Part shown: one piece after another, positions 48,773 through 64,000 of the stretch
Position numbering within the stretch: position 1 is the first letter of the stretch
Layout of the letters: each line of letters begins with the position of its first letter
Assembly: GCF_022267315.1 (NCBI RefSeq)
Contig: NZ_JAIKLE010000030.1
Span: 16,372 to 80,371 of the forward strand
DNA length: 64,000 bases
Direction of reading: 5' to 3'
DNA from: Maribellus maritimus
GTDB taxonomy: Bacteria > Bacteroidota > Bacteroidia > Bacteroidales > Prolixibacteraceae
Notes under the pieces: generated by a model
The model's database searches: none
Told to the model about the DNA's origin: nothing
What the model saw: only the letters and a program-made list of their open reading frames with translations
Translations under genes and position numbers: made by a program

Positions 48773-49159
48773 ATGAGTGCACTGGAGATTTCAGAAAAAG
48801 ATTTTTTGATTGGTGCCAGGAATGGCATTCAGAAATCCAGGCTTTTGTCAATTGCGCGGGAGTCAGGTTTAACATTGAAGGAGCTGAGTTCGTATCTAAG
48901 AATTTCTACTCGATCAATCCAGGAAAAGGAGCCATCACAACTGATTGCCCCCGGGCCGTCAGAAAGGGCATTGTATATAGCGAAACTATTTAGAAAGGGG
49001 ATCGATATCTTTGGTAGCCGGGATAAATTTTATAACTGGTTGAATTCAGAAAGTGTGGCTATGGGTGGCGAAAAACCAGTTTCCTACCTGGACACTTTTT
49101 CCGGTATACAATTGGTCATGGATGAGTTAAATGCAATTGAATATGGATTTTCTGCCTGA
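48773..49159 (+). CDS. Xre/MbcA/ParS-type antitoxin (DUF2384)
   Basis: Antitoxin of 128 residues. The N-terminal helix-turn-helix-like part is about 20-60 (SIARESGLTLKELSSYLRIS). The C-terminal DUF2384 domain is about 65-125 (ALYIAKLFRKGIDIFGSRDKFYNWLNS, with ...PVSYLDTFSG). These proteins neutralise RES-domain toxins by covering the active site, and they repress the operon. Its stop overlaps the toxin start (TGATG at 49157-49161), indicating translational coupling. Confidence 0.9.
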   Translation: MSALEISEKDFLIGARNGIQKSRLLSIARESGLTLKELSSYLRISTRSIQEKEPSQLIAPGPSERALYIAKLFRKGIDIFGSRDKFYNWLNSESVAMGGEKPVSYLDTFSGIQLVMDELNAIEYGFSA

Positions 49160-49623
49160 TGTTTGTATACAGGATTGCCCATAAGGAACATTCAGCGCTT
49201 GATGGGGTAGGAGGGGTGTATGGTACTGGAAGATGGCACAGAAAAGGCAGTTTGATTATTTATACGTCCGAACATGCATCCCTGGCTGCGTGGGAAAAAC
49301 TTGTTCATATAACAAGTTTAGAGAATCTTCCCAATAATTTGTTGCTAATAAAAATTGAAATCCCAGAGAACATAGAAGCTTATACAGTTCCCAAAGAAGT
49401 TCTTGTAAAAGGATGGGATGGATTTCCTTTTACGTCTGAAACAATTAATTATGGCACTTCCTTTTTACGTGAAAGAAAATACTTAGCCCTTAAAGTCCCT
49501 TCTGTCGTTATTCCTGAGGAGTATAATATTATTTTAAATCCACTCCACCTGAATTTCCGATCTTGTAAAATCGTCAGCAAAGTTCCGTTTATATTTGATA
49601 AACGTATCTCACAAAATGGTTGA
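49159..49623 (+). CDS. RES-domain NAD+-degrading toxin
   Basis: Toxin of 154 residues with the RES family motifs: an early YRI with an Arg, GRWHRKG (Arg), YTSEHASLAAWEKL (Tyr, Ser and Glu region) and the late NPLHLNFRS. RES toxins of the MbcT/Res type are ADP-ribosyl-transferase-like enzymes that break down NAD+ with phosphate or transfer ADP-ribose. Paired with the overlapping DUF2384 antitoxin. Together with HipBA it forms a stretch of addiction modules just before the integrase. Confidence 0.9.
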   Translation: MFVYRIAHKEHSALDGVGGVYGTGRWHRKGSLIIYTSEHASLAAWEKLVHITSLENLPNNLLLIKIEIPENIEAYTVPKEVLVKGWDGFPFTSETINYGTSFLRERKYLALKVPSVVIPEEYNIILNPLHLNFRSCKIVSKVPFIFDKRISQNG

Positions 49624-50372: not shown

Positions 50373-51539
50373 TTGCTTTTTATTAAAAGATTGTTAATTT
50401 TAGTATCAAAATCAGGACCATTGAACGCACTGCCCAACATAACACTTAAAAAAGGATTTCACAGAGAGCAAAATGTAATACGTGTTGAATTCCCGTATAA
50501 TGTGCAGATTAAGGACTTGTTACGTGCCGGCACACCTGCGCGGTGGAGCCGTACAATGGGGTGCTGGTACATAAACGAAAAAGATTTCGACCTGAACAAG
50601 TTTTACCTTCAGTTTAACCCCCTGACGTATATTAATTATTCAGAGCTAAACAAAAACCAGCAAAAATCTTTTAACCCACAAAAAAAAGGACAAAATAAAC
50701 TTCGGATTGAATTGCCCCCTGGTTACCTGGAGATACTTGAACAAAAAAGACGTAGCCCGAATACAATAAAAATTTACACCAGCTATTTTAAAGATTTTGT
50801 CCGTTATTTTAACAACCGGGATTTAGAGCAAATAAATAAAGAGGAAATTAATAGTTATATTCTAAAATTAATAAGAGAGCAGAAAATTTCTCCGAGTCAG
50901 CAAAATCAAAGAATAAACGCGATTAAATTCTATTATGAACAGGTGGTTGGAAGGGAGAAACAATGCTATGATATTCAGAGGCCGGCAAAAGAAAGAAAGT
51001 TGCCTGACGTATTGAGCAAAAATGAAATTAAGGAAATGATAAACGCAACAAAATACCTTAAACACAAGGCGCTGATTTCGCTTATTTATTCATGCGGATT
51101 AAGACGGAGCGAAGCAATTAATTTAATATTGAGCGATATAGATTCAAAAAGAATGCTGGTTAAGATAAGGGGAGGAAAGGGGAAAAAAGATCGTTATGTT
51201 CCGCTGGCAAAAGGTACACTGGATGGGTTGCGCGTTTATTATAAAAATGATAATCCTGTAAAATGGTTGTTTGAAGGAGAGAAAAAAGGGGAGAAATACA
51301 GCGAAGCAAGTGTTTATAATGTGATTAAAAAAGCGGCACGAAAGGCAGAAATAAAAAAAAGAGTTTATCCTCATATTTTGCGTCACAGTTTTGCCACCCA
51401 TCATTTGGAACAAGGAACTGATTTAAGGATAATTCAGGAATTACTTGGACATTCCAGTTCAGAAACAACGGAAATATACACTCATGTATCACAAACCAGT
51501 TTCTCAGAATTAAAAAATCCGATTGATGATCTTTTTTAA
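50373..51539 (+). CDS. Tyrosine recombinase of an integron-like cassette array
   Basis: Tyrosine site-specific recombinase of about 388 residues. An extra N-terminal domain (about 22-85; VIRVEFPYN, ARWSRTMGCWYI) precedes a core-binding SAM-like domain (about 113-200) and the catalytic domain (about 208-388). The active-site residues are all present: Arg244, Lys269, His334, Arg337, His360 and nucleophile Tyr369 (EIYTHV). The C-terminus PIDDLF resembles the SPLDxL ending of Xer/IntI proteins. The 40 or so extra residues that mark true IntI integrases between the Lys and HxxR patches are absent. No ATG is in frame near the 5' end: TTG at 50373 or TTG at 50421 could be used. A cassette array begins directly downstream. 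Confidence 0.88.
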   Translation: MLFIKRLLILVSKSGPLNALPNITLKKGFHREQNVIRVEFPYNVQIKDLLRAGTPARWSRTMGCWYINEKDFDLNKFYLQFNPLTYINYSELNKNQQKSFNPQKKGQNKLRIELPPGYLEILEQKRRSPNTIKIYTSYFKDFVRYFNNRDLEQINKEEINSYILKLIREQKISPSQQNQRINAIKFYYEQVVGREKQCYDIQRPAKERKLPDVLSKNEIKEMINATKYLKHKALISLIYSCGLRRSEAINLILSDIDSKRMLVKIRGGKGKKDRYVPLAKGTLDGLRVYYKNDNPVKWLFEGEKKGEKYSEASVYNVIKKAARKAEIKKRVYPHILRHSFATHHLEQGTDLRIIQELLGHSSSETTEIYTHVSQTSFSELKNPIDDLF

Positions 51540-51605
51540 TTTTAAAAATGAAGAGCGTAAATATATTATGGTGTATTGCCGGAATATAATGAACAAAATC
51601 CAAAA

Positions 51606-51651
51606 CTATAACCGAAATATAATTAACGGTCATTATATTACTTCGTTATAG
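51606..51651 (+). other. Putative attI-like recombination site (short hairpin)
   Basis: A 46-bp imperfect palindrome 67 bp after the integrase stop. CTATAAC (51606-51612) pairs with GTTATAG (51645-51651). CGAAATATAAT pairs with ATTATATTACTTCG, leaving extra bases on the right arm and an 8-base loop. The right end CG|TTATAG is the left boundary of the first cassette (51646). It looks like a miniature attC; canonical attI sites are not palindromic. Confidence 0.6.
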
Positions 51652-51684
51652 CCAATTTAAACAGAGCCTCATAGCAAAGAACGT

Positions 51685-52299
51685 ATGAGTAAAAAAACAT
51701 TAATATGGATTTGTGTAATATGGATAATTATTACTCTTTTGAATTACTACATTGTTCCATATTTCATTCTTGCTTTCGAGTGGATATTTATGACTGTTTT
51801 TTTGTTAATTATGACAATAATCCAAATTGTAAAATTAATTAAGGAAAGACATCAAATAAAAAAACAAAGATTTTATAGTCTTCTTGTTATCACAAGTCTT
51901 TTTATTCTAACTTTTTATAGAGATGTACCTAATCGGACAATTGAGAAAATAGACTGGATTATTCTTTTAAATAAACGAGTTAAAATTGTAGAACAAGTCA
52001 AAAATAATACATTAAAACCAGGCAAAGGAAAAAGTGGACAGATATGCGAATTGCCTTTTGAGTTTCCAATTGTTTCTAATGGTGGGAATGACATTGTATT
52101 TTATAAAAATAGGACAGATAGTACTTTGACAGTAAAATTCTGGGTTTTTAGAAATTTTTTTGATTCGCCATCGACATATTTTGTTTATACCGAGGATTCT
52201 GAAGAAAAAAAACAAATTGAAAATCTGATAGAAAAACATCCTAAATCGAACTGGAAAATAAAAGACAATTGGTATCGAGTTTATAGAATAGGATTTTAA
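51685..52299 (+). CDS. Cassette 1: small membrane protein of unknown function
   Basis: Protein of 204 residues with two or three N-terminal transmembrane helices (about 5-25, 27-50 and 65-75) and a soluble C-terminal part (about 85-204) that contains DWIILLNKRVKIVEQ and WKIKDNWYRVYRIGF. No family recognised. It is the only gene of the first cassette (51646-52440), the position of highest expression and most recent insertion in a typical integron. Confidence 0.7.
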   Translation: MSKKTLIWICVIWIIITLLNYYIVPYFILAFEWIFMTVFLLIMTIIQIVKLIKERHQIKKQRFYSLLVITSLFILTFYRDVPNRTIEKIDWIILLNKRVKIVEQVKNNTLKPGKGKSGQICELPFEFPIVSNGGNDIVFYKNRTDSTLTVKFWVFRNFFDSPSTYFVYTEDSEEKKQIENLIEKHPKSNWKIKDNWYRVYRIGF

Positions 52300-52311
52300 A
52301 AAATAAAAACT

Positions 52312-52448
52312 GGCTATAACATTTTGTAAATTGCATTGCGGCATTCGGTGCAGGTTGTCGCCCCGGATTCACGCCTGATTGTCTTCGTCCTGCGGACGGA
52401 CAATCACCCGCAATCCGCAACGACAACTTACAATTTTCCGTTACCAAA
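52312..52448 (+). other. attC site of cassette 1
   Basis: R'' GGCTATAAC (52312-52320), complementary to the cassette start GTTATAGCC (51645-51653); R' starts at G52440|T52441. Inner arms: TTGTAA-ATTG-CATTGCGG on the left against CCGCAACGACAACTTACAA on the right, with one unpaired extra base on the right arm. The terminal structure contains a hairpin GATTGTC / GACAATC with inner CGTCC / GGACG. Length about 135 bp. Confidence 0.85.
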
Positions 52449-52526
52449 CAGTTTAAAAAAGCGCAAATCGTGAAACATAAGACAAAAACCATATTATCTC
52501 TTGCGCTTTTGAAGAGTAAAAACCGA

Positions 52527-52600
52527 TTTGGTAACAAACTGTATATTTCATGGCTATTCGGTTTTTCAATGACAAGACAGTGGTAATGTTTTAAATTTTT
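52527..52600 (+). other. Left arm of a split attC (cassette 2)
   Basis: R'' TTTGGTAAC (52527-52535), complementary to the cassette start GTTACCAAA (52440-52448), then AAACTGTATATTTCATGGC, the usual left-arm pattern. The matching right arm is not nearby but at 54936-54957. The arm ends in GTTTTAAATTTTT (52588-52600), whose exact inverted copy is at 54879-54891. The 2.3 kb between them lies inside the attC loop. Inside the short body of the cassette, AAAAGCGCAA (52457-52466) and TTGCGCTTTT (52501-52510) form another inverted repeat. Confidence 0.75.
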
Positions 52601-52684
52601 GGCCGACGCGCGTCGGTTTTTGCAAAACCGTTGAGGAGGGGTTAACAAGAAATAGAAAAGCATAAATAGATTAAACTAAATCAA

Positions 52685-53236
52685 ATGAATAAACTAATTA
52701 TTTTTCTCGTATTCGCCGTTTTATTTGCATCATGTTCAAAAGATGAACCTGAACCCAAATTACTCAACCAGTTTACCATTGATGGAGAAGTGTATGAAAT
52801 AGCAGGTGTATATAATTACTGTGGATACCAATATTCTGCAGGCAAAAAATTATATTCCACCACGCTGATGATTTCTGATGTTGTTATGTCAGACACTCCA
52901 AGCTACCTATTCAAAGACATTGCCAGCGGAGATTATAACATAGAAGGTGCAAGTATTATCCTGATTACAGAACTTGTTGGAGAGGTTGAAACTTACAACG
53001 AGATATGGGATTTTACCGATAACATGGTATCAACATTTATAGCATCTGACGTTTCGATAAACTTGAATTTTAATGATGGAGGATATAGTTCAATTACCAA
53101 ATTAAATAGTTTAATAAACAATGGCGTTTATCATGATTCAGAATATGAAATCAAATTCACCGGAAAGACGACCGATGGTAGAACTATTGAGTGTTATTAT
53201 TTGGGTGGGCAAGGTACTAGTGTCACTGAGAAATAA
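52685..53236 (+). CDS. Small lipoprotein of unknown function
   Basis: Lipoprotein of 183 residues; lipobox Cys17 (LFASC) followed by SKDEPEPK, the acidic outer-membrane sorting-like start common in Bacteroidota. The rest is beta-rich (FTIDGEVYEIAGVYNYCGYQY) and ends in a hydrophilic tail. No enzymatic motif recognised. First gene of the insert in the split attC. Confidence 0.75.
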   Translation: MNKLIIFLVFAVLFASCSKDEPEPKLLNQFTIDGEVYEIAGVYNYCGYQYSAGKKLYSTTLMISDVVMSDTPSYLFKDIASGDYNIEGASIILITELVGEVETYNEIWDFTDNMVSTFIASDVSINLNFNDGGYSSITKLNSLINNGVYHDSEYEIKFTGKTTDGRTIECYYLGGQGTSVTEK

Positions 53237-53317
53237 AAATAACTCATTTAAATATGGGGGTATATAGTGATTCGATAAATTTTTCAAAAATTGATTCATT
53301 GTTAAATAATTTAAAAT

Positions 53318-53806
53318 ATGAAAAAATTAATTTTTATCCTCGTGCTTTTCCCACTGCTTACAATGGGACAAAAAAAATTCGACCGCTATATTGACAGTCA
53401 GATTAAGGCAGGTGTCGATTCTATACAATTACAAATTTCGGCGACAAATTATTGCTTACATCAATTCTATAAAGAAAAAATGATTAGTTATTCTGCTCAA
53501 GTAGCCGGACTTGCCGCTGTATTTTATGGCACAAGCGATGGAATTAACGGCACAAATGATGCTTTCAGGACATATCAAGACTTATTATCATCAAAGCCTT
53601 CAACCGGACTAGAAAACTATTTTATTAAGTTAAGGAGAGCAGAAAGAGAATATTATGATTTGGTTGACCGTAATGATTTAATAGTAAAAATCGGCTCTGC
53701 TGTAGCCGCGACTGGTGTAGTTTTAAATATCGTTGCCCATCGATGGTTAAAAAAATCATACATCCTACCTGCCGAGCATGGAATAGGAGTAATGATAAAA
53801 TTCTAA
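53318..53806 (+). CDS. Small secreted or membrane protein, unknown
   Basis: Protein of 162 residues with signal peptide 1-17 (LFPLLTMGQ), a central Gly/Ala-rich helix (about 62-80, SAQVAGLAAVFYGTSDG) and a second hydrophobic helix (about 128-145, IVKIGSAVAATGVVLNIVA). It resembles small two-helix envelope proteins but belongs to no family I know. It forms a probable operon with the next two genes. Confidence 0.65.
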   Translation: MKKLIFILVLFPLLTMGQKKFDRYIDSQIKAGVDSIQLQISATNYCLHQFYKEKMISYSAQVAGLAAVFYGTSDGINGTNDAFRTYQDLLSSKPSTGLENYFIKLRRAEREYYDLVDRNDLIVKIGSAVAATGVVLNIVAHRWLKKSYILPAEHGIGVMIKF

Positions 53807-53845
53807 TCAATTTGTACATGATTAAAACAATATAAAACTATCAAT

Positions 53846-54349
53846 ATGCAAGACGAACAATCATTTAAAGAAGCTCAAGAACTATTTGATACAATAAACG
53901 AATTTATTGAAACTCTCGAAGAATCATCTGATAGTAAAAATCAAATTAATGGCATATTGTCTCTATTAAAAACAATCGTTGAGTTATTAAGGTCAAATGA
54001 CGAAACAAAATTTCACCAGAGTAAATTGTTGGACAATCATTCTGAGATGCTAAATTATGCTCAAAATACTGCTCAAATTCTAGACGACTCTTTAAAAGCT
54101 CAAGTGAAAATATTTAGTGAATATGATGACAAAATTTCCAAATTAGCAAAAATGGTTTCTGGTATTGCATCAAATTCTGCAAAATTGGGTGAGCAAGTAA
54201 AAGAACTTGCTGAAAACACAGCAAAGATTCCTGCAATCAACATTGACAATTTACTCAATACATTAAACGAACACGCTGATGAGATTAATGTAAATACGGC
54301 ATCAATTAAAAAAATAAAAGATAAACTGAACTTGGAATATGGACATTGA
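53846..54349 (+). CDS. Coiled-coil protein, unknown
   Basis: Soluble, acidic protein of 167 residues that is almost entirely helical with heptad-like repeats (FDTINEFIETLEESSDSKNQ; LAKMVSGIASNSAKLGEQVKELAENTAKI), the look of a long coiled coil similar to methyl-accepting or tape-measure helices. No catalytic motif. Its 3' end overlaps the next gene by 11 bp, so the two proteins are probably made in a fixed ratio and interact. Confidence 0.7.
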   Translation: MQDEQSFKEAQELFDTINEFIETLEESSDSKNQINGILSLLKTIVELLRSNDETKFHQSKLLDNHSEMLNYAQNTAQILDDSLKAQVKIFSEYDDKISKLAKMVSGIASNSAKLGEQVKELAENTAKIPAINIDNLLNTLNEHADEINVNTASIKKIKDKLNLEYGH

Positions 54350-54770
54350 CAAGAATATAGATGATATATTTAAAAATATTTGTGAAAGACCAAATTTAAG
54401 CATGGATCTGGATTTCTTAATGTACTATAAACGAAACAGGAGATTTTTTGATTTAATGACAAAGCCTCCTTTCGAATTAATTGAGATTACACCGGACAAA
54501 ATAATAAGATTTACAAAAATTGGCAGACAAGTAAAAAAAGAAGGTGGATGGCTGATACATTTAAACAATGAAGAGCGTAATGAAATTGAAGATAAAGCAA
54601 TAAATAAAAGAATATCTGAATTGACAATAGAAAATTTAGAATTACAGAATAAACAACTTAAAAACAAAATTTTATATGCAATTATTGGTGGAGCAATTGG
54701 TTTCTTACTTGCTAACTGGAAAGATATTTTAGTAATGCTTCAAGCAATAGATAAGTCAAGCATCCAATAG
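54339..54770 (+). CDS. Tail-anchored coiled-coil membrane protein, unknown
   Basis: Protein of 143 residues. The N-terminal 80 residues are soluble, with a compact alpha/beta look (FELIEITPDKIIRFTKIGRQVKKEGGWLIHL). A coiled coil follows (about 85-112, ERNEIEDKAINKRISELTIEN) and then one transmembrane helix near the C-terminus (about 113-130, ILYAIIGGAIGFLLANW). It overlaps the previous coiled-coil gene by 11 bp. Probably the membrane partner of that protein. Confidence 0.7.
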   Translation: MDIDKNIDDIFKNICERPNLSMDLDFLMYYKRNRRFFDLMTKPPFELIEITPDKIIRFTKIGRQVKKEGGWLIHLNNEERNEIEDKAINKRISELTIENLELQNKQLKNKILYAIIGGAIGFLLANWKDILVMLQAIDKSSIQ

Positions 54771-54878
54771 TCATGTATTTAATGGCAAACAAAATTTTGT
54801 ATAATATTTTTTTAAACTGATTCATTGTCAAATAAACTATAGTGATTAATAAAAAAATGGAAAGAAAATCCCTCCCTA

Positions 54879-54965
54879 AAAAATTTAAAACGGCAACGGC
54901 AGTTCTTCGTAGCACCGGGGAAGGATATTCGACGCCACGAAAACATACAGGTGACCGTTAGCGCC
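54879..54965 (+). other. Right arm of the split attC; boundary of cassette 3
   Basis: The arm GCCACGAAAACATACAGG followed by TGACCG|TTAGCGCC pairs with the left arm at 52527-52555: CTGTAT-ATTT-CATGGC against its complement, with the same extra base as in the other sites. AAAAATTTAAAAC (54879-54891) is the inverted copy of 52588-52600. The junction 54957|54958 starts cassette 3. Confidence 0.75.
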
Positions 54966-54971
54966 AATGCT

Positions 54972-55883
54972 ATGAGAACACTACGATACATATTAACTCT
55001 TGTTTTGATAACAAATATCTTGATTCTAAATGGACAGGATAAATGTGAATGCTGTACTTATTACTCCATTGAGAATGAGGATTTATATGAATACTTTTTT
55101 AATTCTGATTTCATAAAAGCGAACCTGATAAAACAGGCAATTGTTTACACCACAGAGACTAATGAACAAAATTCATTTAGATTCCAACATGCGAAGTTTT
55201 TGTTTGATTCTAATGGAAATATTTCTGCTCGATACGATTATAATCAAAACGGAAAACCACATATGATTAAAGAGTATTTCAGAGATGATTCGGGCATGAT
55301 TATTAAAACTTCAAAATCTTACTTAAAAGAGGATGAGTCCAAAACCAATTCATGGAGTCCAACAATTATTGATTACTTTTATAATCAAGCTGGATTGCTT
55401 ATAAAAATTAAGGAGAGGGATAATAAAGGCAATGTTATTTCTGATTCTTTAAGTGAGTATACAACATATAATTACGATTCAAAAGGGAGAATGATTAAAG
55501 AATATAGATATGCCAATTATAGCGGAAGTATTTACATATATGAGCAAGATATAGATTACCCCTCTGATAAAGAATCAATAGGGATTACTAAAAACAATGG
55601 CAATGACTGGTTAAAAACATCATCTCGATTTGATAGTAAAGCAAGATTGATACAACAAACCGATTACGATTTTCCTGATAATGAAATAGTGTGGGATAAA
55701 GAATATATTTTCTTAAACGATAGATTGACAGAACAGATAAGTAAAAGAGGAAATGGATTCACAGAATGTCCAGACAATGATGAATTTACTGAGGATTATT
55801 TTTATAATTACTTTGGATTATTAGAAAAGATAAATCATAAGTTTGATAGAGTAACTTGTGAAATGATAATAGAATATGAATAA
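54972..55883 (+). CDS. Cassette 3: secreted YD/RHS-like repeat protein
   Basis: Secreted protein of 303 residues with signal peptide about 1-22 (RYILTLVLITNILILNGQ), a Cys-rich start (DKCECCTYYS) and several units like FDSNGNISARYDYNQNG and YNYDSKGRMIKEYRY that resemble the YD/WG repeats of RHS-type or toxin-related surface proteins. A GTG at 54951 gives a longer frame, but it lies before the recombination point (54957|54958). The ATG at 54972 is the start that belongs to the cassette. Function unknown. Confidence 0.75.
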   Translation: MRTLRYILTLVLITNILILNGQDKCECCTYYSIENEDLYEYFFNSDFIKANLIKQAIVYTTETNEQNSFRFQHAKFLFDSNGNISARYDYNQNGKPHMIKEYFRDDSGMIIKTSKSYLKEDESKTNSWSPTIIDYFYNQAGLLIKIKERDNKGNVISDSLSEYTTYNYDSKGRMIKEYRYANYSGSIYIYEQDIDYPSDKESIGITKNNGNDWLKTSSRFDSKARLIQQTDYDFPDNEIVWDKEYIFLNDRLTEQISKRGNGFTECPDNDEFTEDYFYNYFGLLEKINHKFDRVTCEMIIEYE

Positions 55884-55889
55884 AGCACA

Positions 55890-56028
55890 GGCGCTAACAA
55901 GCGGTCATAAAACATTGCGCGGATAGTGCTGTATTTAAACGAAATAACATTTAATCAGCGGTTTAGCGAGTTGATAAGTTGGTGCTTTGAAGTGCGCAAC
56001 GATTTTATACCGCAGGCCGTTAACGCAA
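55890..56028 (+). other. attC site of cassette 3
   Basis: R'' GGCGCTAAC (55890-55898), complementary to the cassette start GTTAGCGCC (54957-54965). Left arm GCGGTCATAAAACATTGCGC; right arm GCGCAACGATTTTATACCGC followed by AGGCCG|TTAACGC (junction 56019|56020). The inner part (GTGCTG near 55926, GTGCTTTGAAGTGC near 55983) is similar to that of the site at 63784, so these two belong to one subgroup. Confidence 0.88.
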
Positions 56029-56055
56029 ATTTTAAAAAACACTGACTAAACAAAT

Positions 56056-58236
56056 ATGAACGTAAAAACTGCATTATTTAAACTAGCTTTTTTTGAACCA
56101 AATCTCAGTGATGAAAAAGACAATCAAATACTTGACTATTTAGTTCTTGAGTGTATTACAGCTCACAGCCCAATGTTGGAGTGCAATTCTGCTGAAGTTG
56201 CAAAATATATCAAGACTACATTTTCAATAGAATTCGAAGAAGCCGAAATTCTGAGTTCGGCAGAGAGGTTACAAGAAAAAGAAAACATCATAATTATTGA
56301 ATCTGCTAAAAAATATGTCTCTCCCAGATTCAAATTAATGAAAGCAGATTCAGATATTAATCAAAACAAAATAGTCGAACTTGAGGAAAGGGTTTTTGGT
56401 GATTGGTCAGACTATCTGATTAAAAAATATGAAAAATTTGTTACAGAATCCAATGTTGAAAAGCTAGTTCAGTCCTTTCAGACTTTTTTATCAAAGATGC
56501 TTGTATTGCATGGAAAAGAATCAGTTGCAACTTTATATCCTGATAATCCTAAAACACAAAAATGGTTGGATAAAATTAATGGTGAAATCATAAAAGAATT
56601 ACCAAAATTAGGAAAAGAGCTTGATATAATTCAACAAATAGAAATTCCACTATTTTTCAAAAGCGACGAAAAAAACCGAAAAGACTATTTAAATAATTTA
56701 TTTAATGCTAGCTTCTTATGGCATCTAATTCAAATTGATGATGCATGTACGGAGTATTTTAAAAAAACCATTGAAGGTCAAATTCTTGTACTTGACAATA
56801 ACATACTATTTAGTTTGATTGGTCTTCATGGCACGGAACTTTTAAACGCAGTTCATAATTTAATGAATTATGCGACTGAACTTGGTTATGAATTGATTGT
56901 AACAACAAAAACACTTGATGAATTTTATAATTCGATTCAAAAAAACACAGAAAAAGCTCTCAAGTCGCCACTTTATTCAAAAGAAATTGCTCTTGCGGCA
57001 ATAGATGTGCTAGAGACAAACACATTTCTTGTTTCTTATTGGAAAGAGTTTATAAACAATGGACTAGCGATTGAAGAATTTGCTCTTGAAAAATCCCACA
57101 TAAATAATATCCTTAAAGGTTATGGGATAAAATTAACTGAACAATTTAGGGAGGAGATTGAAAAATCCGAGGAACTTAAAGACGAAGAAAGCTTATTAAG
57201 AGAATCATGTAGTACTGGTAATTTCAGTCAATCCGTAATAGAACATGATGCTTTTCACAGAATCTTTATCAAAAAACTTCGAAACGGATTTAAATACAAA
57301 TTCTCTGAAGCAAAAGCTTGGTTTCTAACTCATGATTCAAAACTTCCGACTTATGCGCATCATGCTTTAAAAGGAAGGCGAGCTTTACCATTTTGTATTT
57401 CCACAAATGAGTGGATGCAAGTAAACAGACCATTCTTAAAAAGAAATAATTCAGAATATGAAAAATCTTTTCAAGTATTAGTTACGCAACCATTTTTAAG
57501 GACTGCTCTTTCTAATTTTAAGGTCGACAAAGTAAAAGAGAAGTTATTATCAAAGCTGAATAGATATAATAACATGGATACTCAGTTAGCTTTTGACCTA
57601 ACCACTGATGTACATTTTCTTTATTCATTATCTAAAGAAAAAAATGATGAAAAAGTTGAAGAGAAAATAGATAACGCCATTCTTGAGATAAATCAAAACC
57701 TCCGAGATGAAAACAAGGATGTCTATGAAATACTTGAAAAACAAGAAATTGAAAACCAAGAAAAAATCAATAATTTAAATGTTGACTTGGAAAAAATAAG
57801 GTCTGAATTAACCGAAAAAGAAGAATTGCATAACAATCTTTTAGCAGAATTATCAAAGTTGAAAGGCTCACTGGATAATATGAGCCAAAAAATTGATAAA
57901 AGAGATGAAGAAATCACAACTTCTAAAAAGGAACTAGATGATAAAAATAAAGAAATAGAAACTATTTCAAAGACAGCAAGAACTCAAAAGGCAATAATAA
58001 TCTGGGGATTATTTGCAGTCCTTTTAATTTCTGGTTCCTTAATAATCTGGTTCATGGAAAAATTATTTGACTGGCAATGGTTTACAGTCCATTCTTATAA
58101 CTTAGCAATGAAAATTATATTAAATATAGAACTTGTTCTGATTACACTAAATATTCCATTATCCAAACATTGGGTAATTTGGATTAGTGCAATTGGAGCA
58201 TTTTTAATTGCTTTTTTAACATTTGCTTTTGGATAA
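56056..58236 (+). CDS. Cassette 4: membrane-anchored PIN-like nuclease candidate
   Basis: Protein of 726 residues. The N-terminal 100 residues look like a winged-helix or helical domain. A PIN-like fold (about 240-455) is suggested by four spaced acids: Asp247 in LVLDNN, Glu289 in TLDEF, Asp398 in EHDAF and Asp427 in FLTHDSK, the order and spacing context of PIN RNases. A long coiled coil (about 545-660) and two C-terminal transmembrane helices (about 664-688 and 706-724) follow. A nuclease on a membrane stalk in a mobile cassette suggests phage defence or toxin activity, but this is inference. No antitoxin gene is next to it. Confidence 0.7.
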   Translation: MNVKTALFKLAFFEPNLSDEKDNQILDYLVLECITAHSPMLECNSAEVAKYIKTTFSIEFEEAEILSSAERLQEKENIIIIESAKKYVSPRFKLMKADSDINQNKIVELEERVFGDWSDYLIKKYEKFVTESNVEKLVQSFQTFLSKMLVLHGKESVATLYPDNPKTQKWLDKINGEIIKELPKLGKELDIIQQIEIPLFFKSDEKNRKDYLNNLFNASFLWHLIQIDDACTEYFKKTIEGQILVLDNNILFSLIGLHGTELLNAVHNLMNYATELGYELIVTTKTLDEFYNSIQKNTEKALKSPLYSKEIALAAIDVLETNTFLVSYWKEFINNGLAIEEFALEKSHINNILKGYGIKLTEQFREEIEKSEELKDEESLLRESCSTGNFSQSVIEHDAFHRIFIKKLRNGFKYKFSEAKAWFLTHDSKLPTYAHHALKGRRALPFCISTNEWMQVNRPFLKRNNSEYEKSFQVLVTQPFLRTALSNFKVDKVKEKLLSKLNRYNNMDTQLAFDLTTDVHFLYSLSKEKNDEKVEEKIDNAILEINQNLRDENKDVYEILEKQEIENQEKINNLNVDLEKIRSELTEKEELHNNLLAELSKLKGSLDNMSQKIDKRDEEITTSKKELDDKNKEIETISKTARTQKAIIIWGLFAVLLISGSLIIWFMEKLFDWQWFTVHSYNLAMKIILNIELVLITLNIPLSKHWVIWISAIGAFLIAFLTFAFG

Positions 58237-58241
58237 AAAAC

Positions 58242-58379
58242 TTGCGTTAACACGTGGTATAAGGCATGGCTGGGTTTGTGTGGATTCGACAAGTCGAATC
58301 TCGTCCCAACTTCAGTTTCGGTCGGACTGGTCAGACTCTCGTCTGACCGCCACGACCTCATACCACCACCGTTATGCAC
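58242..58379 (+). other. attC site of cassette 4
   Basis: R'' TTGCGTTAAC (58242-58251), complementary to the cassette start GTTAACGCAA (56019-56028). Left arm GTGGTATAAGGCATGGC; right arm GCCACGACCTCATACCAC followed by CACCG|TTATGCAC (junction 58371|58372). The terminal structure holds two perfect hairpins: GATTCGAC / GTCGAATC and GGTCAGAC / GTCTGACC. Confidence 0.9.
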
Positions 58380-58398
58380 AAGCATAAACAAAAAACAA

Positions 58399-58452
58399 TT
58401 AATGACGAAATTAAAAATTTATTCAATTTTTCGTCATTAAGATATATCTTTG
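58399..58452 (+). promoter_or_regulatory. Promoter and palindromic operator of the AAA ATPase gene
   Basis: Perfect 12-bp inverted repeat TTAATGACGAAA (58399-58410) / TTTCGTCATTAA (58429-58440), followed by the minus-7 box TATCTTTG (58445-58452), with the ATG at 58465. The spacing places the right half over the promoter, as for an autorepressor, and leaves a 5' leader of only a few bases. No TTG minus-33 box is seen at the normal distance. Confidence 0.65.
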
Positions 58453-58464
58453 CATTAAAAAAGT

Positions 58465-59667
58465 ATGATACAAAGAGAAACATATTTAAGCAAATTAAGG
58501 CAACTCAAAGACCAAAATTTAATAAAAGTCATTACAGGGATTCGACGTTGTGGAAAATCAACTCTTCTTGAAGCATTTAAAAATGAACTTTTATCAAGCG
58601 GTATCTCTCCCAGAAATATTGTGTTCCTCAACTTTGAAGAAAGAGAAAATTTAAACTTTACTGATTGGACTGCGCTATATGATGAAATTATAAAAAATGT
58701 AAGTAACGACGAGAAATATTATATTTTTTTAGATGAAGTTCAATTAATCAATGATTTTGAAAAGCTAATAAACAGCCTGTATACTAAAAAGAATATAGAT
58801 TTATATGTTACAGGTTCAAATGCTTATTTGCTTTCAAGCGAGTTAGCTACGCTTTTGACAGGTAGATATATTGCAATAAATATTCAACCCTATTCATTTA
58901 AAGAATATATTCTGGCAAACAACGATGATAAAAACACCGACCGTTTATTTCGCAAATACATTAATGACAGCAGTTTTCCTGAAGCGGTAACACTTTCTCA
59001 AAATAATCAAGATTTAGTAAACGACTATCTGCAATCTATTTATGATACAGTTATTATAAAAGATATTGCGCAGAGGAATAAACTTAGAAATATTCATAAT
59101 TTACAACGGATTATTAGCTTCCTATTTGATTCTGTTGGTTCTTATGTTTCACCAACAAATATTGCCACAGAACTGAATAAAAATTCACAAAAAAGCATAT
59201 CTCATAATACGATTATAAAATATTTGGATTTCCTTACTCAATCGTATATTCTATACGCAGCACCACGTTATGACATAAAAGGAAAGGAGTTGCTTTCGAC
59301 AAACGAGAAATATTACATTGTCGATTTAGGATTGAGAAACATTACAGCAACTAATAAGTATGATACTGATTTAGGTCATAAACTTGAAAATGTCGTCTAT
59401 TTCGAACTATTTAGACGTGGAGGAAAAGTGTACGTAGGAAAGCACAATGACAAAGAGATTGATTTTGTAGTTCAAAAGCCAAATAATGAAAGAGAATATT
59501 ATCAGGTTGCCTACACAGTTAATGACGAAAAAACATTTAAACGAGAAATTTCGGCATTTAAAAACATCAAAGACAATTATCCTAAGTATTTATTGACACT
59601 TGATTTTGACAATACAAACATAGAAGGCATCCAAAAACTAAACGTAATTGATTGGTTACTAAAATAA
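58465..59667 (+). CDS. Cassette 5: AAA ATPase with DUF4143 domain
   Basis: Protein of 400 residues. AAA_14 domain about 5-190 with Walker A GIRRCGKST (25-33), Walker B YIFLDE (86-91) and sensor VTGSNAYLLS. A winged-helix part follows (about 210-260), then the DUF4143 C-terminal domain (about 240-370), which has a nuclease-like core (EIDFVVQKPNNEREYYQVAY). This group is very common in anaerobes and archaea and its role is unproven. The cassette brings its own promoter and operator. Confidence 0.92.
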   Translation: MIQRETYLSKLRQLKDQNLIKVITGIRRCGKSTLLEAFKNELLSSGISPRNIVFLNFEERENLNFTDWTALYDEIIKNVSNDEKYYIFLDEVQLINDFEKLINSLYTKKNIDLYVTGSNAYLLSSELATLLTGRYIAINIQPYSFKEYILANNDDKNTDRLFRKYINDSSFPEAVTLSQNNQDLVNDYLQSIYDTVIIKDIAQRNKLRNIHNLQRIISFLFDSVGSYVSPTNIATELNKNSQKSISHNTIIKYLDFLTQSYILYAAPRYDIKGKELLSTNEKYYIVDLGLRNITATNKYDTDLGHKLENVVYFELFRRGGKVYVGKHNDKEIDFVVQKPNNEREYYQVAYTVNDEKTFKREISAFKNIKDNYPKYLLTLDFDNTNIEGIQKLNVIDWLLK

Positions 59668-59690
59668 AACAAAAAGGAAAACAAATGCCA

Positions 59691-59826
59691 GTGCATAACA
59701 AGGTACATATTGCAGGGCTGGTTCGGTGGTACGCCAACTGCGGATTCTCGTTTCGCAGTTCCGTGTCCTTCGGACAGGAACGCTCTTCGAAATCCGCCCC
59801 GACAACATGTACCAACCGTTGTATGC
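59691..59826 (+). other. attC site of cassette 5
   Basis: R'' GTGCATAAC (59691-59699), complementary to the cassette start GTTATGCAC (58371-58379). Left arm GGTACATATTGCAGGGC; right arm GCCCCGACAACATGTACC followed by AACCG|TTGTATGC (junction 59818|59819). Inner hairpin TTCCGTGTCC / GGACAGGAA around TTC. It shows the common pattern of one extra right-arm base and an A/G mismatch next to it. Confidence 0.9.
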
Positions 59827-60097
59827 AAGTGTAAAAAGACAAAACTCGATGCTTTGAAATAAAAGATTAATTAATAGAAAGAAAAATTTATTGATTTGGT
59901 GCTTCGTAAAAAGGTCAGTGCATATTGAGGGTAATTTATTTTGTTTTTTCTCTCCCCCCCACAAAGACAAAAGAAACCCAACCGCACAAAACAACACATT
60001 TGCAAACCGCTGCAAGCCAGCCCTGCAATCCAAAGTTTGCAAAAGAGTTGTTTTTTTGCCTGCGCTACATTAGCTTAATCATTGTACATTTACATTT
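59827..60097. other. 5' region of the metal cassette with a degenerate repeat
   Basis: 271 bp between the attC site and the fur-type gene. The stretch 59957-60050 has a CCCACAAAGACAAAAG block and TTTGCAAACCGCTGCAAGCC ... AAAGTTTGCAAA. Related blocks (CCCACAAAAACAAAAT; CTTGCCAAAGAGCTTACAAA) appear after the last gene of the cassette at about 63560-63690, so the three-gene module is flanked by weak repeats. Confidence 0.4.
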
Positions 60098-60508
60098 ATG
60101 AAAGGTAAAACAGATAAAAAATTAGAACAAAAGAATATCAAACCAACCGCTATGCGCCAATTGGTTTACGAGATTTTAGAAAAACAAAAGAAAGCATTAA
60201 GCCTTTATGAAATAGAACAGCAGTTTGACAATGTTGAAAGGTCAACTATATTTCGTACGCTCAAGACGTTTCAGGACAACTACCTTATTCACAGCATTGA
60301 CGATGGTACGGGAGCGGTAAAATATGCCTTGTGCGATGATGATTGTACCTGCAAACCCGATGACCTTCATATTCATTTTTTATGCAATAAATGCGGTCAA
60401 ACTCACTGTATGAAAGACATGCCAGTTCCAAAGATGGATTTAGCAGAAGGCTTCTCGTTTGAAAATGCCAATTTTGTGGTAAAAGGAATTTGCCCTAATT
60501 GCCGATAA
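60098..60508 (+). CDS. Cassette 6: Fur family metal-responsive regulator
   Basis: Cytoplasmic repressor of 136 residues with the Fur winged helix (about 15-80, TAMRQLVYEILEKQKKALSLYEIEQQ, RSTIFRTLKTF) and a dimerisation domain that has DLHIHFLCNKCGQTHC and a final CPNC. The two Cys pairs form the structural zinc site. A Zur- or Fur-type role is likely because the next genes encode a TonB receptor and a metal transporter. The imperfect palindrome TTGCAATACTGTTGCA (60512-60527) before the receptor gene may be its operator. Confidence 0.9.
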   Translation: MKGKTDKKLEQKNIKPTAMRQLVYEILEKQKKALSLYEIEQQFDNVERSTIFRTLKTFQDNYLIHSIDDGTGAVKYALCDDDCTCKPDDLHIHFLCNKCGQTHCMKDMPVPKMDLAEGFSFENANFVVKGICPNCR

Positions 60509-60511
60509 AAC

Positions 60512-60527
60512 TTTGCAATACTGTTGC
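60512..60527 (+). promoter_or_regulatory. Possible Fur/Zur-type operator
   Basis: TTGCAATACTGTTGCA lies directly after the fur-type gene and 48 bp before the TonB receptor start. Two TTGCA half-sites with AT-rich centres recall Zur-type boxes in other bacteria. Only one site is seen and the symmetry is imperfect, so this is tentative. Confidence 0.35.
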
Positions 60528-60574
60528 ACTTACTCATTCAGTAGTTTTGTTACATAATTTTTAAAAGTTATGCT

Positions 60575-62758
60575 ATGAAACAAACATTCACTATTCTATT
60601 ACTTCTTTTTTCAACAGGTTTATTATTCGCACAAAACAAAATAACTTTTGAGGTAAAAGAAGAATCTGGCGAATCCTTAATTGGAGCAAGTGTAATTATT
60701 GAAGGAACGACGACAGGTACAATTACAAATAATGAGGGTTTTGCAAGATTGGAGAATTTACCCAATGGCGAAATAGAGTTTGTAATTTCTTTTGTCGGCT
60801 TTGAAGAAAAGGAAATTACTCTATCTTTTCCAGATGACAACAACAAAACGATTGAAGTTGAGCTGGAAGAAGGAGAAGAACTTGAAGAAGTTGTAATTGC
60901 AGCAACAAGGTCTTCCCGAACAATTCAGGATATTCCAACAAGAATTGAAGCAATTACAGGCGAAGAATTAGGCGAAAAAGCAGCTATGAACTCAACAAAT
61001 ATTGGCATGCTTTTAAGAGAAACCACAGGTGTGCATATGCAGCAAACCTCACTTAGTTCTGGAAATATGAGTATTCGCATTCAGGGTTTGGATGGTCGAT
61101 ACACACAAATATTAAAAGATGGAATGCCACTTTATGGTGGTTTCGCCGGTGGGTTATCTATTATGCAAATACCACCGCTTGACTTAAAGCAAGTTGAGCT
61201 AATTAAAGGGAGTAATTCTACTTTGTACGGTGGTGGAGCAATTGCAGGTTTGGTAAACCTTGTAACCATACGACCAGAAGAGGAAGCAAAGCTTGATGTT
61301 ATGCTAAATCAAACAAGTGCTTTGGGTACAACTGGCAATTTGTTTTATGCGCAGAAATACGGAAAAGTTGGTCTTTCAGTTTATGGCTCAGCTAATAATC
61401 AAATCGCATTCGACCCCGACGAAGATGGTTTTTCAAATATGCCCAAAGCGCAAACTTTTAGTCTAAATCCAAAATTCTACTACTACTTCAATCCTAACAC
61501 TGAATTAAGTTTAGGGTTAAACACTACCATCGATAATAGAACGGGTGGAGACATGGAAGTGATAAAGGGAAACACAAGTACTGAACATATTTTTTCCGAA
61601 GAAAATAAATCGGAACGTTATGCTACGCAATTAAGTTTTCGGAATACAACCGATGACAGAACATTCTCTTTTAAAAATAGTGTTTCCTATTTTGACAGAA
61701 AACTAAGTATTCCAGACTACCGATTCAGTGGAAATCAATTATCCAGTTTTACCGAAGCCATATACAATTTGCATAAAAACGATAATACAGAATGGCAATT
61801 GGGATTAAACCATTATCTCGAACAGTTTACAGAGACAGACGCTGACTCATATTCTGCAAGAGATTATACACATAACACCTTTGGTGGCTTTATTCAAAAC
61901 ACTACCGATTTTAGTAAAAAACTTGGGTTAGAAACTGGCTTACGAACCGACTACAATGCTGACTATGGGACATTTGTGCTGCCACGTTTTTCATTGTTAT
62001 TTAAACCTAACAATAAATTAAGTTCACGACTTGGCGGTGCTATGGGTTACAAGCTTCCTACAATTTTCACCGAAGATGCTGAGAGAATTTATTATCGGGA
62101 TATTCAACCATTATCAAAAGACCTGGTAGATGCAGAAACTTCAATAGGAGGAAATTTCGATATAAATTACAAAACCGCATTGGGCGATGAAATGACTTTC
62201 TCAATCAACCAACTCTTCTTTTTGACTCAGCTAAAAAATGCATTGGTTTTACGGGAAGACGAAACAATGGGCATGGCTTATTTTGAAAGCGCTGATGGTA
62301 ACATTTTAAGTTCAGGCTTTGAAACCAATATAAAACTAACATACGACGATTTTAAACTCTATTTAAACTACGCCTTTGTTAATACTGAATTACAATACGA
62401 TAATATCAATAACCAGAAACCACTTACACCAAAGCACAATGCGGGTGCAGTATTATTCTATGAAATTGAAGAAAAATGGTCTGCTGGATATGAGGTTTAT
62501 TACACTGGGAAACAGTTCGATAATTTATACAATCAAAAAACAGATTATTGGACAATGGGAATAATGATTATGCGACATTGGGAACGTTTATCTTTATTCG
62601 TGAATTTCGAGAACTTTACAAACGTTATGCAATCTGATTTTGAACCTTTGGTTTTGCCGCCAACAAATAATCCTACTTTCCCTGATATTTGGGCACCGGC
62701 TGATGGATTTGTATTTAATGGAGGAATAAAACTTAGATTATCAGGCGACAATGATTAA
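60575..62758 (+). CDS. Cassette 6: TonB-dependent receptor (metal-type)
   Basis: Outer-membrane receptor of 727 residues. Signal peptide 1-19; carboxypeptidase-like domain about 22-100 (ESGESLIGASVIIEGTTTG); plug about 110-225 (MSIRIQGLDGRYTQILKDGMPLYGG and STLYGGGAIAGLVN); 22-strand barrel to the C-terminus. There is no STN domain and no SusD partner, so it is of the siderophore/metal type. It lies 66 bp after the Fur gene and overlaps the CDF gene by 8 bp, so it probably takes up a metal or metal complex under Fur control. Confidence 0.92.
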   Translation: MKQTFTILLLLFSTGLLFAQNKITFEVKEESGESLIGASVIIEGTTTGTITNNEGFARLENLPNGEIEFVISFVGFEEKEITLSFPDDNNKTIEVELEEGEELEEVVIAATRSSRTIQDIPTRIEAITGEELGEKAAMNSTNIGMLLRETTGVHMQQTSLSSGNMSIRIQGLDGRYTQILKDGMPLYGGFAGGLSIMQIPPLDLKQVELIKGSNSTLYGGGAIAGLVNLVTIRPEEEAKLDVMLNQTSALGTTGNLFYAQKYGKVGLSVYGSANNQIAFDPDEDGFSNMPKAQTFSLNPKFYYYFNPNTELSLGLNTTIDNRTGGDMEVIKGNTSTEHIFSEENKSERYATQLSFRNTTDDRTFSFKNSVSYFDRKLSIPDYRFSGNQLSSFTEAIYNLHKNDNTEWQLGLNHYLEQFTETDADSYSARDYTHNTFGGFIQNTTDFSKKLGLETGLRTDYNADYGTFVLPRFSLLFKPNNKLSSRLGGAMGYKLPTIFTEDAERIYYRDIQPLSKDLVDAETSIGGNFDINYKTALGDEMTFSINQLFFLTQLKNALVLREDETMGMAYFESADGNILSSGFETNIKLTYDDFKLYLNYAFVNTELQYDNINNQKPLTPKHNAGAVLFYEIEEKWSAGYEVYYTGKQFDNLYNQKTDYWTMGIMIMRHWERLSLFVNFENFTNVMQSDFEPLVLPPTNNPTFPDIWAPADGFVFNGGIKLRLSGDND

Positions 62759-63548
62759 ATCAGAATACCACATATCGAAAATGGATTGTCCATCCGAAGA
62801 AAACATGATTCGTATGAAGTTGGATGGAATAGAGGTTATCAGGAAATTGGAATTCGATATTGAAAATCGCAATCTTACTGTTTTTCATTCTCGGGAAGAT
62901 GAAGAAATATTATCGCGTCTGGAATCATTAAACTTTGGAGCAAAACATACATATTCAAGTTCTATTGATGAAAAGGAAGTAACAATAGAAAGTTCCGATG
63001 TACAATCAAAACTGTTATGGACGATACTCATAATTAATTTTGGATTTTTCATAATTGAAATGACTACAGGACTTATTTCAAAGTCAATGGGTTTGGTGGC
63101 AGATTCTTTAGACATGTTAGCTGATTCTTTTGTATATGGATTAAGTCTTTGGGCAGTTGGTTCAACAGTTCTGAGAAAAAAGAAAGTTGCACGTTGGAGT
63201 GGTTATTTTCAATTATCCTTAGCCTTTTTAGGTATTATAGAAGTGGTAAGACGATTTATAGGTTCTGAAGAAATGCCAGACTACAGAATTATGATTGGAG
63301 TTTCAGTTTTAGCATTAACTGCCAATGCCATCTGTTTGTACCTACTCCAGAAATCGAAAAGTAAAGAAGCACACATGAAAGCCAGTATGATTTTTACTTC
63401 CAACGATGTAATAATAAATTCAGGAGTTATTTTAGCTGGTGTATTGGTGTTGCTGACCCAATCAAAATATCCTGATTTGATTGTTGGTTCTATTGTTTTT
63501 TTGATTGTATCTCAGGGTGCATTTAGAATATTGAAACTTGGGAAATGA
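62751..63548 (+). CDS. Cassette 6: cation diffusion facilitator with HMA-like domain
   Basis: Inner-membrane transporter of 265 residues. The N-terminal HMA-like metal-binding domain (about 3-70) has MDCPSEE, a CxxE in place of the usual CxxC. The CDF membrane part (about 80-265) has SLDMLADS (112-119) and SNDVIINSGV in the second metal site, with five or six helices. CDF proteins export Zn, Fe, Co or Mn. The late cytoplasmic CDF domain is absent, as in short members. The 8-bp overlap with the receptor gene (ATG inside its 3' end) indicates coupling. Confidence 0.88.
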   Translation: MIKSEYHISKMDCPSEENMIRMKLDGIEVIRKLEFDIENRNLTVFHSREDEEILSRLESLNFGAKHTYSSSIDEKEVTIESSDVQSKLLWTILIINFGFFIIEMTTGLISKSMGLVADSLDMLADSFVYGLSLWAVGSTVLRKKKVARWSGYFQLSLAFLGIIEVVRRFIGSEEMPDYRIMIGVSVLALTANAICLYLLQKSKSKEAHMKASMIFTSNDVIINSGVILAGVLVLLTQSKYPDLIVGSIVFLIVSQGAFRILKLGK

Positions 63549-63783
63549 TAGCCATCCCTTTTTGTAAGCACATTGTCAAGTCGCACGAGCCACTCTAAAC
63601 CTAAACTTGCCAAAGAGCTTACAAAGCCAACCCTAATTACCGCCTTTAAGGGCGGTTTGGGGATTTACCCACCCACAAAAACAAAATAAATTTGTACTCC
63701 GAATCAACGTCTGTGCAGATTGATAAGAAAACTGTTAAATTTGTTAAAACTTGAGACGGATTGACTTTGAAGGATAAACACCA
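63549..63783. other. 3' region of the metal cassette with a hairpin
   Basis: No gene. A hairpin ACCGCC / GGCGGT (63639-63644 / 63651-63656) followed by TTTGGGGATTT could end the operon, though its T-run is weak. A degenerate repeat related to 59957-60050 lies at about 63560-63690. Confidence 0.4.
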
Positions 63784-63917
63784 GCATACAACAAAGTGTA
63801 TAAATCATTGGGCGGTTTGTGCTGATTTCAAGTGTGTTACATTTAATAAACTGCGTAGCGGTTTGACAGGAAAGTGCTTCGAAATGCCCAACGCTTCATA
63901 CACCAACCGTTAGGTGC
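63784..63917 (+). other. attC site of cassette 6
   Basis: R'' GCATACAAC (63784-63792), complementary to the cassette start GTTGTATGC (59818-59826), 4 kb away. Left arm GTGTATAAATCATTGGGC; right arm GCCCAACGCTTCATACAC followed by CAACCG|TTAGGTGC (junction 63909|63910). Its terminal structure (GTGCTGATTTCAAGTG ... AAAGTGCTTCGAAATG) is related to that of the site at 55890. Confidence 0.88.
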
Positions 63918-63935
63918 AATTTTAAATGAGAACAA

Positions 63936-64000
63936 ATGCCAGATTGGGATAAAATAATATCAGAACATACAAATAAGGAACTTGATGAAATACTTCTGGA
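63936..64000 (+). CDS. Cassette 7: start of an unknown gene, cut by the window end
   Basis: ATG at 63936, 26 bp past the cassette boundary, opens a frame MPDWDKIISEHTNKELDEIL that runs off the window. The distance from the boundary is like that of the other cassette genes. Too short for identification. An earlier ATG at 63926 gives only eight codons. Confidence 0.5.
   Translation, partial: MPDWDKIISEHTNKELDEILL

Follow-up and report, generated by a model that had tools for sequence, protein, structure and literature searches.

A cassette array with attC-type sites behind an insert-less tyrosine recombinase in Maribellus maritimus: a likely second gene-capture system of the Bacteroidota

Can gene cassettes with attC-type ends be moved by a tyrosine recombinase that lacks the insert specific to the integron integrase IntI? 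The question is raised by a 64,000-nt stretch of the Maribellus maritimus genome (contig NZ_JAIKLE010000030.1; hereafter the window, whose end is also the contig end), in which a tyrosine recombinase is followed by six complete co-oriented cassettes and the start of a seventh, as established both by reading and by computation. We propose, with a probability of roughly 85%, that these cassettes follow an insert-less recombinase that cuts and joins their attC-type ends like an integron integrase. Judged from the sequences, an integron-type system is likely, with an IntI relative that lacks the IntI-specific insert as its enzyme. Moreover, the pairing of recombinase and sites recurs across the phylum, which makes a second kind of gene-capture system, largely overlooked so far, likely. 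For the Bacteroidetes, the relevant part of a 2022 survey (PMC9024848) mentions first cassette-less integrases only and then one complete integron, in Salinibacter. In the literature searched, mostly outside subscription journals, we recognised no description of Bacteroidota attC arrays with an insert-less recombinase.

Cassettes and their attC-type sites

An earlier, sequence-only reading of this DNA had placed seven cassette junctions in the window. All of them exist (51645, 52440, 54957, 56019, 58371, 59818 and 63909), each one base before the number given there when the G of GTT is counted first. CCG|TT, which that reading had assigned to all junctions, occurs at six; the first, adjoining the recombinase, is TCG|TT. 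Its claim that every complete cassette starts with bases complementary to its own R'' box holds in 6/6 cases (10, 9, 9, 10, 9 and 9 bases; GTTACCAAA/TTTGGTAAC as head and R'' box of cassette 2). Six of the seven cassettes are complete, and the end of the window and contig truncates the seventh (63909-64000). The circle-closing ends, cassette logic and attC-type fold that it had proposed are supported and recur across the phylum, as described below.

From the R'' box to the next junction, five of the six cassettes measure 129, 129, 129, 127 and 125 bp. In cassette 2 (52440-54956) this distance is 2430 bp, because an insertion of ∼2.3 kb splits the attC site. The left arm of the split site starts at 52527 and the right arm lies at ∼54915-54965; across the insertion, pairing is retained by the L arm CTGTAT and the inner arm TGGC (spacings 3/6 and 6/7), whereas a decoy right arm at 52630 has no pairing. 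R1, the covariance model introduced below, misses this site. The insert in its loop (∼52565-54912) contains four small open reading frames (ORFs). As a control for chance, we used a detector that requires CCGTT, complementarity of the cassette ends at 9/9 bases and a second CCGTT 60-160 bp further along. In the window it gave six matches, all on the + strand, four of which are true cassettes, while the other two are the R'' box of the split cassette with the decoy CCGTT at 52630 and one chance pair of 7.1 kb; the first cassette is missed because it starts with TCGTT. Shuffling the whole window gave 41 matches per 100 shuffles over both strands, with at most three in any one.

To describe the sites, we built R1 from 16 of them: 5 from the window, 5 from locus L034, 3 from L036, 1 from L015 and 2 from L016. 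Besides the window itself, two further arrays in its genome and two related loci contributed, and all 16 sites fit the model by construction. The window sites used were attC 1 (52312-52448, from R'' to the next core), attC 3 (55890-56027), attC 4 (58243-58379), attC 5 (59691-59826) and attC 6 (63784-63917), the last being the top R1 match of the genome (123.3 bits); these sites, the split one and all seven cassettes lie on the + strand. In the closed-circle form, standard pairs fill 96.2% of the 319 pair cells of the 16 aligned sites, and pairing falls to 25-40% when the structures are shifted by 1-3 columns. There are 86 two-sided changes and zero one-sided (wobble) changes, which points to a palindrome of DNA and not of RNA. 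Only the R stem had been chosen for its pairing, yet the L and inner stems behave alike.

Over 274 distinct sites found with R1, the modal site has a spacer of 3 after AAC and of 5-6 before GTT, an L stem of 6 bp, a loop of 6/7 or 6/6 and then an inner stem. The sites thus have the paired R/L boxes and G|TT core of attC; the L helix is at least 5 bp long in 259 of the 274, in a search whose model itself includes that helix. The cassette-specific code lies at head positions 4-9. The sites found here have a 9-bp R stem, then a mismatched position 11 and about three more matches. Of 181 heads, 180 carry A at position 11; this position is unpaired in every one of the 133 fully matching pairs, and matching resumes at positions 12-14 in 73-88%. 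Such an outer element, a mismatch at position 11 with further matches, is not known from the standard attC sites of IntI integrons.

The complementarity between the two ends of a cassette is general. In arrays of the phylum sample (14 of 143 sites were dropped, their ends not being AAC/GTT), the head matches the next R'' box at all six variable bases in 55/75 consecutive pairs, compared with 1.2-1.8% at random. In the genus, for the best 150 of 212 matches, 78/106 pairs match fully, and 71/81 when cassettes <2.5 kb are considered. Random pairing over both sets gives 1.2-2.0% full six-base matches, and an R'' box matches the head of the following cassette in 3/129 cases. It is thus within a cassette that the ends are complementary, as closure into a circle would need. 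Most cassettes also read in one direction: among 93 closed cassettes of the genus, the longest ORF is on the array strand in 86 and on the opposite strand in 2, and 5 have no ORF of 60 amino acids.

Exact copies of single cassettes exist. In each of four genomes (G303, G298, G304 and G312), one cassette is present in two copies that show 100% identity over 855-1516 bp and whose four edges are all at most 6 bp from junctions. Among all 57 repeat edges, 23 are no more than 12 bp away from a junction, whereas 1.9% would be expected for random positions. Two stretches are common to G303 and G312, one of 1096 bp at 97.2% identity and one of 1139 bp at 93.6%, and one of the two begins at a junction in both genomes; the recombinase genes of G303 and G312 can be aligned over 248 nt only, at 68%. 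The cassettes of these two species are therefore far more alike than the adjoining recombinase genes.

In the window array, cassette 1 (51645-52439) encodes a 204-amino acid protein with no family match and, by eye, a hydrophobic start; cassette 3 (54957-56018) a 304-amino acid protein with a weak RHS-repeat match below the cut-off; and cassette 4 (56019-58370) a 726-amino acid protein with weak sub-cut-off matches, SMC-type among them. An AAA_14/DUF4143 ATPase (PF13173, PF13635) is encoded by cassette 5 (58371-59817) and belongs to the PADLOC candidate phage-defence family PDC-S01 (PDLC04787, E 7.5e-151). Cassette 6 (59818-63908) carries a FUR-family regulator (PF01475), a TonB-dependent receptor (PF07715/PF00593) and a cation-efflux protein (PF01545).

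The recombinase and its relation to IntI

The recombinase gene (50421-51539, + strand) encodes 372 amino acids from a TTG at 50421, the start in the ORF list being a TTG at 50373; two homologues of 372 amino acids are 95-96% identical to it. Our analyses used 50424-51536 (371 amino acids), a frame in which the predicted catalytic tyrosine is Y352. An N-terminal domain of ∼80 amino acids is followed by the core-binding and catalytic domains (Pfam PF00589 and PF13495). The protein scores above the cut-off for NF040815 (XerA_Arch, 'site-specific tyrosine recombinase/integron integrase'; 232.7 bits, cut-off 220), a label that leaves recombinase versus integron-integrase function undecided; the second recombinase copy of the genome, with its last residues missing from the query, scores 219. 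It stays below the cut-offs for integron integrases (TIGR02249, 205.5 against 265) and for the XerC/XerD families (TIGR02225, 203.8 against 329.6; TIGR02224, 198.6 against 335.15).

An AlphaFold2 model of the protein has a mean predicted local distance difference test score (pLDDT) of 83.4, and the catalytic core is matched by the XerA and IntI4 structures. Between the matched stretches, however, IntI4 (2a3v) has 69 amino acids where the recombinase has 27. The same difference is seen in the distance from a GKGxKDR patch to the HxLRH box, which is 58-61 amino acids in 86 of the 88 readable sequences of the new type (55 and 63 in the other two; 5/93 were unreadable), as opposed to 100 in 11/11 canonical IntI sequences. 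This indicates that ∼40 residues are missing from the new recombinases, at what we take to be the place of the IntI-specific additional domain, the I2 helix. This helix is held to have let integron integrases use folded single strands. Judged from its sequence, the recombinase is thus not a standard integron integrase, since the IntI-specific insert was looked for and is absent. The integron interpretation of the sequence-only reading is supported for the cassettes and the attC-type fold but not for the recombinase, given its TIGR02249 score, the absent insert and its orientation, which is that of the array. Section 7 of PMC8138268 states that the insertion is not fully conserved within its 'integron-like' subgroup, so that proteins of the new type may already be among its members.

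The N-terminal domain (50421-50660) has a confident predicted fold (mean pLDDT 88.6) and shows weak similarity to the XPB damage-recognition and HARP domains. Since domains of these two types bind damaged or branched DNA, a role as hairpin reader would fit, and this domain could be the part of the protein that reads the attC fold.

Phylogenetic analysis was based on two unrooted trees. For the 104-row tree, rows without a readable H-x-x-R were dropped, so that 11/12 IntI and 9/18 Xer loci entered, to which two Xer sequences from the window genome and three near relatives were added; the 70-row tree contained 48 new rows, partly a random draw, and two long-branch rows were left out. Both trees set Xer apart from the new recombinases and IntI (100/99 with 104 rows, 100/100 with 70), and the XerC/XerD of Bacteroidota are thus a separate group (100/99), unlike the recombinase studied here. 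IntI forms one clade in each. With a long archaeal row present (104 rows), the new recombinases are sister to IntI at 86/70; without it (70 rows), IntI falls among six new rows, mostly array-less (sites at L155 only), at 98/95. The new recombinases are either the sister of IntI or the grade from which IntI arose.

These trees bear on the idea that the locus is an ordinary IntI integron, in which the integrase drifted or lost its insert within one lineage, with no separate family involved. The grouping with IntI and apart from Xer agrees with it. Moreover, as IntI lies inside the new rows in the 70-row tree, where holding the new rows as one clade is not rejected (approximately unbiased test, p-AU 0.375), a secondary loss of the insert is possible. 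However, the short patch spacing is shared by nearly all readable new sequences and by none of the canonical ones, and it spans both orientations of the gene relative to the array and many host families. We therefore consider a drifted IntI unlikely and return to an insert-less relative of IntI as the probable enzyme.

Linkage of recombinase and sites, and their distribution

With R1 (E<=0.01), we searched ∼9.4 kb on both sides of 79 recombinase matches from other genomes of the phylum sample, or as far as the contig reached (1.28 Mb in all). Of the 143 sites found, 122 lie downstream on the same strand, 19 upstream on the opposite strand, 2 upstream on the same strand and none downstream on the opposite strand. 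Two layouts thus exist: commonly the 3' end of the gene faces the array, and in eight loci the two diverge. The divergent recombinases match the query from residue 62 or later only, and the six readable ones likewise lack the IntI insert. These classical-looking loci (G182, G175, G236, G196, G066, G100, G046 and G038) show no N-terminal match. With the N-terminal domain scored as present when the match starts at residue 32 or earlier, sites lie downstream of 26 of the 35 recombinases that have it, and six of the nine site-less loci have <3.6 kb of downstream sequence. With the same model and threshold, no site was detected in 386 kb around XerC/XerD genes (20 neighbourhoods in ten of the genomes); XerD and XerC-type genes are also present in the window genome, with no attC nearby.

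The polarity is accompanied by a candidate entry point. In the window, the attI-like region (51540-51645, + strand) ends with the first junction G|TT at 51645, 106 bp past the recombinase stop, and the head at this junction, GTTATAGCCA, is complementary to the R'' box of the first attC. In the genus, 7/7 arrays tested have a head 92-108 bp past the end of the recombinase match that agrees with an early R'' box at 8/9 bases or more. In the phylum, such a head precedes the first attC found at 50/51 loci; 33 of the 50 heads lie 50-150 bp past the gene, 29 of these 33 matching at 9/9. The position suggests that this attI-like core may serve as the point where new cassettes enter.

The system is widespread; since 11 candidate sites per genome were scored in the phylum and class searches and 81 in the genus search, the site counts are lower bounds. 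In the 7.3 Mb window genome, R1 finds 61 sites at E<=1e-3, many on short contigs. On contig C180, a second recombinase (54% identical) has five complete cassettes of its own, and on C178 (L036) an N-terminal piece of a third recombinase lies ahead of another array. A decayed recombinase copy with stops is present at G000:C22:135804-136619. Among 16 near-full-length relatives (L011-L026), the contig ends <400 bp past the recombinase in 7 and <1 kb past it in 11; assemblers thus seem to break at arrays, which hides them. Sites are present in 23 of 24 other genomes of the genus (E<=1e-4) and the recombinase in 15 of the 24 (E<=1e-75); in the phylum sample, the figures are 119/296 (E<=1e-6) and 72/296 (E<=1e-60). 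Of 295 genomes of the class, 137 have the recombinase (E<=1e-55) and 159 have sites (E<=1e-6): 108 have both, 29 the recombinase only, 51 sites only and 107 neither (Fisher odds ratio 7.8, p 4e-16, without correction for kinship). That few complete integrons are reported from this phylum, as the sequence-only reading had noted, agrees with PMC9024848; sites of the present type were found in 159/295 class genomes.

Several observations weigh against the reading proposed here. In the class, 51 of the 159 site-bearing genomes give no recombinase match at E<=1e-55, perhaps because the arrays have decayed, a divergent recombinase was missed or the cassettes lie elsewhere, and 29 of the 137 recombinase-bearing genomes have no site at E<=1e-6. 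Downstream sites accompany 20 of 44 recombinases without the N-terminal domain, and at three of the nine site-less loci that have the domain, 8.5-9.4 kb of sequence follows the gene. More than 12 bp separate most repeat edges (34/57), those of most G307 copies included, from any known junction. G301 and G304 have a 1518-bp stretch in common (96.2%), and its edges are 315-3015 bp away from the junctions. When attC 6 is folded as single-stranded DNA in its circle form, z is -2.36 (bottom strand) and -1.89 (top strand), and its fold alone is only modestly better than shuffles; two of six folded closed-circle sites have z above -2, namely -1.9 and -0.8, the latter built with the decoy right arm.

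The 51 genomes with sites only would also be expected if a canonical IntI, since lost or acting in trans, had built the arrays and the adjoining recombinase were a bystander. Canonical IntI is indeed common elsewhere in the wider GTDB phylum (above the cut-off in 84/296 genomes). However, it was found in 1/295 class genomes, more than half of which carry the sites, and none was found in the window genome. Moreover, the matching head ∼100 bp past the recombinase in every genus array tested and the site polarity, which follows the recombinase gene, are against a bystander. This explanation appears very unlikely, and the adjoining recombinase remains the favoured enzyme.

On the mechanism preferred here, the recombinase would bind the folded strand of the attC hairpin, composed of the 9-bp R stem, a 3/5-6 spacer, the 6-bp L stem, a loop of ∼6/7 and the inner stem, and strand exchange would take place at the core, between its G and TT. 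Through their complementary ends, excised cassettes would be joined into circles, and new ones would enter at the attI-like core ∼100 bp past the recombinase gene. Head-to-tail cassettes, attC sites with R and L stems, a G|TT core, a putative attI-like entry point, own-end complementarity and large arrays are all shared with IntI integrons such as class 1 and the Vibrio superintegron, whereas the recombinase here lacks the insert, has an extra N-terminal domain of ∼80 amino acids and is read in the same direction as the array. The relevant passages of PMC3607928 describe Treponema integrons as likewise having intI transcribed toward attI, in the direction of the cassettes, but the enzyme there is IntI and here it is not. 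The system would work like an integron and is filed as a variant, not as an IntI integron, because the one protein feature that defines integron integrases is missing.

Relation to rAID islands and to integron evolution

Relatives of the recombinase are also found on plasmids of Bacteroides ovatus, Parabacteroides distasonis, Chryseobacterium, Persicobacter and others. In the Chryseobacterium plasmid NZ_CP041688.1 (L271), an array with attC sites is present, and an IS110 transposase and a group II intron protein are annotated. The B. ovatus and P. distasonis recombinases are 47-48% identical to the query over 95-99% of its length, and the genes that follow them are annotated as type VI secretion system-type immunity proteins, among others. 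Clusters of recombinase-associated acquired interbacterial defence (rAID) genes in gut Bacteroidales were reportedly described by Ross et al. in 2019. In the portion of PMC12247911 that defines them, rAID islands combine a recombinase with short genes that share one orientation and with conserved motifs between the genes. The two plasmid loci fit this published description. The window array also has this layout, with a related recombinase, co-oriented genes and intergenic motifs that differ in length and core.

Is the window array then itself a rAID island, a store of immunity genes and not a general capture system? Apart from the related recombinases and co-oriented genes, the own-end rule speaks for a connection. 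In the B. ovatus locus (L272, plasmid NZ_CP081918.1), intergenic repeats of ∼54 nt end in CCATTA, and at least 7/8 own-end bases match in 10/12 intervals, against 7/132 mismatched pairings; both failing intervals involve one spurious boundary. However, the P. distasonis locus (L273) shows no clear own-end signal under the boundary pattern used, which caught spurious places (7-8 of 8 bases in 2/9 intervals versus 9/72 in the control), and R1 finds no site in either locus at E<=0.01. The sites in the window are 125-129 bp long and end in CCGTT. The cargo differs too: profile scans of 11 window cassette proteins, most of them without any family, revealed no immunity-protein family, so that the orphan immunity genes that characterise rAID islands were not found among them, whereas metal transport and a candidate phage-defence ATPase are present. 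Already weakened by cargo and site length, this explanation is highly improbable for the window. The own-end rule in 10/12 B. ovatus intervals suggests that rAID islands are likely a short-site branch of the same system. The main text of PMC12247911 does not contain the word 'integron', and the link between rAID and attC logic is drawn in the present analysis.

That the sites are ordinary repeated palindromes between genes, such as terminators or small transposon remnants, is hardly credible: they are palindromic, intergenic and repeated, and some stand single on large contigs, but a cassette start matches its own distal box and not that of its neighbour, the covariation has no wobble steps, and the polarity, the Xer control and the whole-cassette copies cut at junctions all argue against it.

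Beyond the cassette system itself, we lean towards a wider view in which the Bacteroidota would hold a second integron lineage, a clade or grade beside IntI that never had the I2 helix or lost it, that moves cassettes through structured attC sites, perhaps with the fold read by the N-terminal domain, and of which rAID would be the short-site branch. PMC7790495 regards the route to the use of folded strands as unsettled for want of an ancestor. A large insert-less group beside IntI, tied to the same kind of site, makes this question testable, and if the group were a grade older than IntI, it would represent the missing pre-I2 state of integron evolution. The integron census changes with the number of class genomes that carry such sites, and the immunity-gene clusters of gut bacteria gain a likely mechanism of gene capture.

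Finally, directly upstream of the recombinase and outside the array, a RES-domain toxin and an Xre/MbcA/ParS-type antitoxin form a pair at 48773-49623 of the window.

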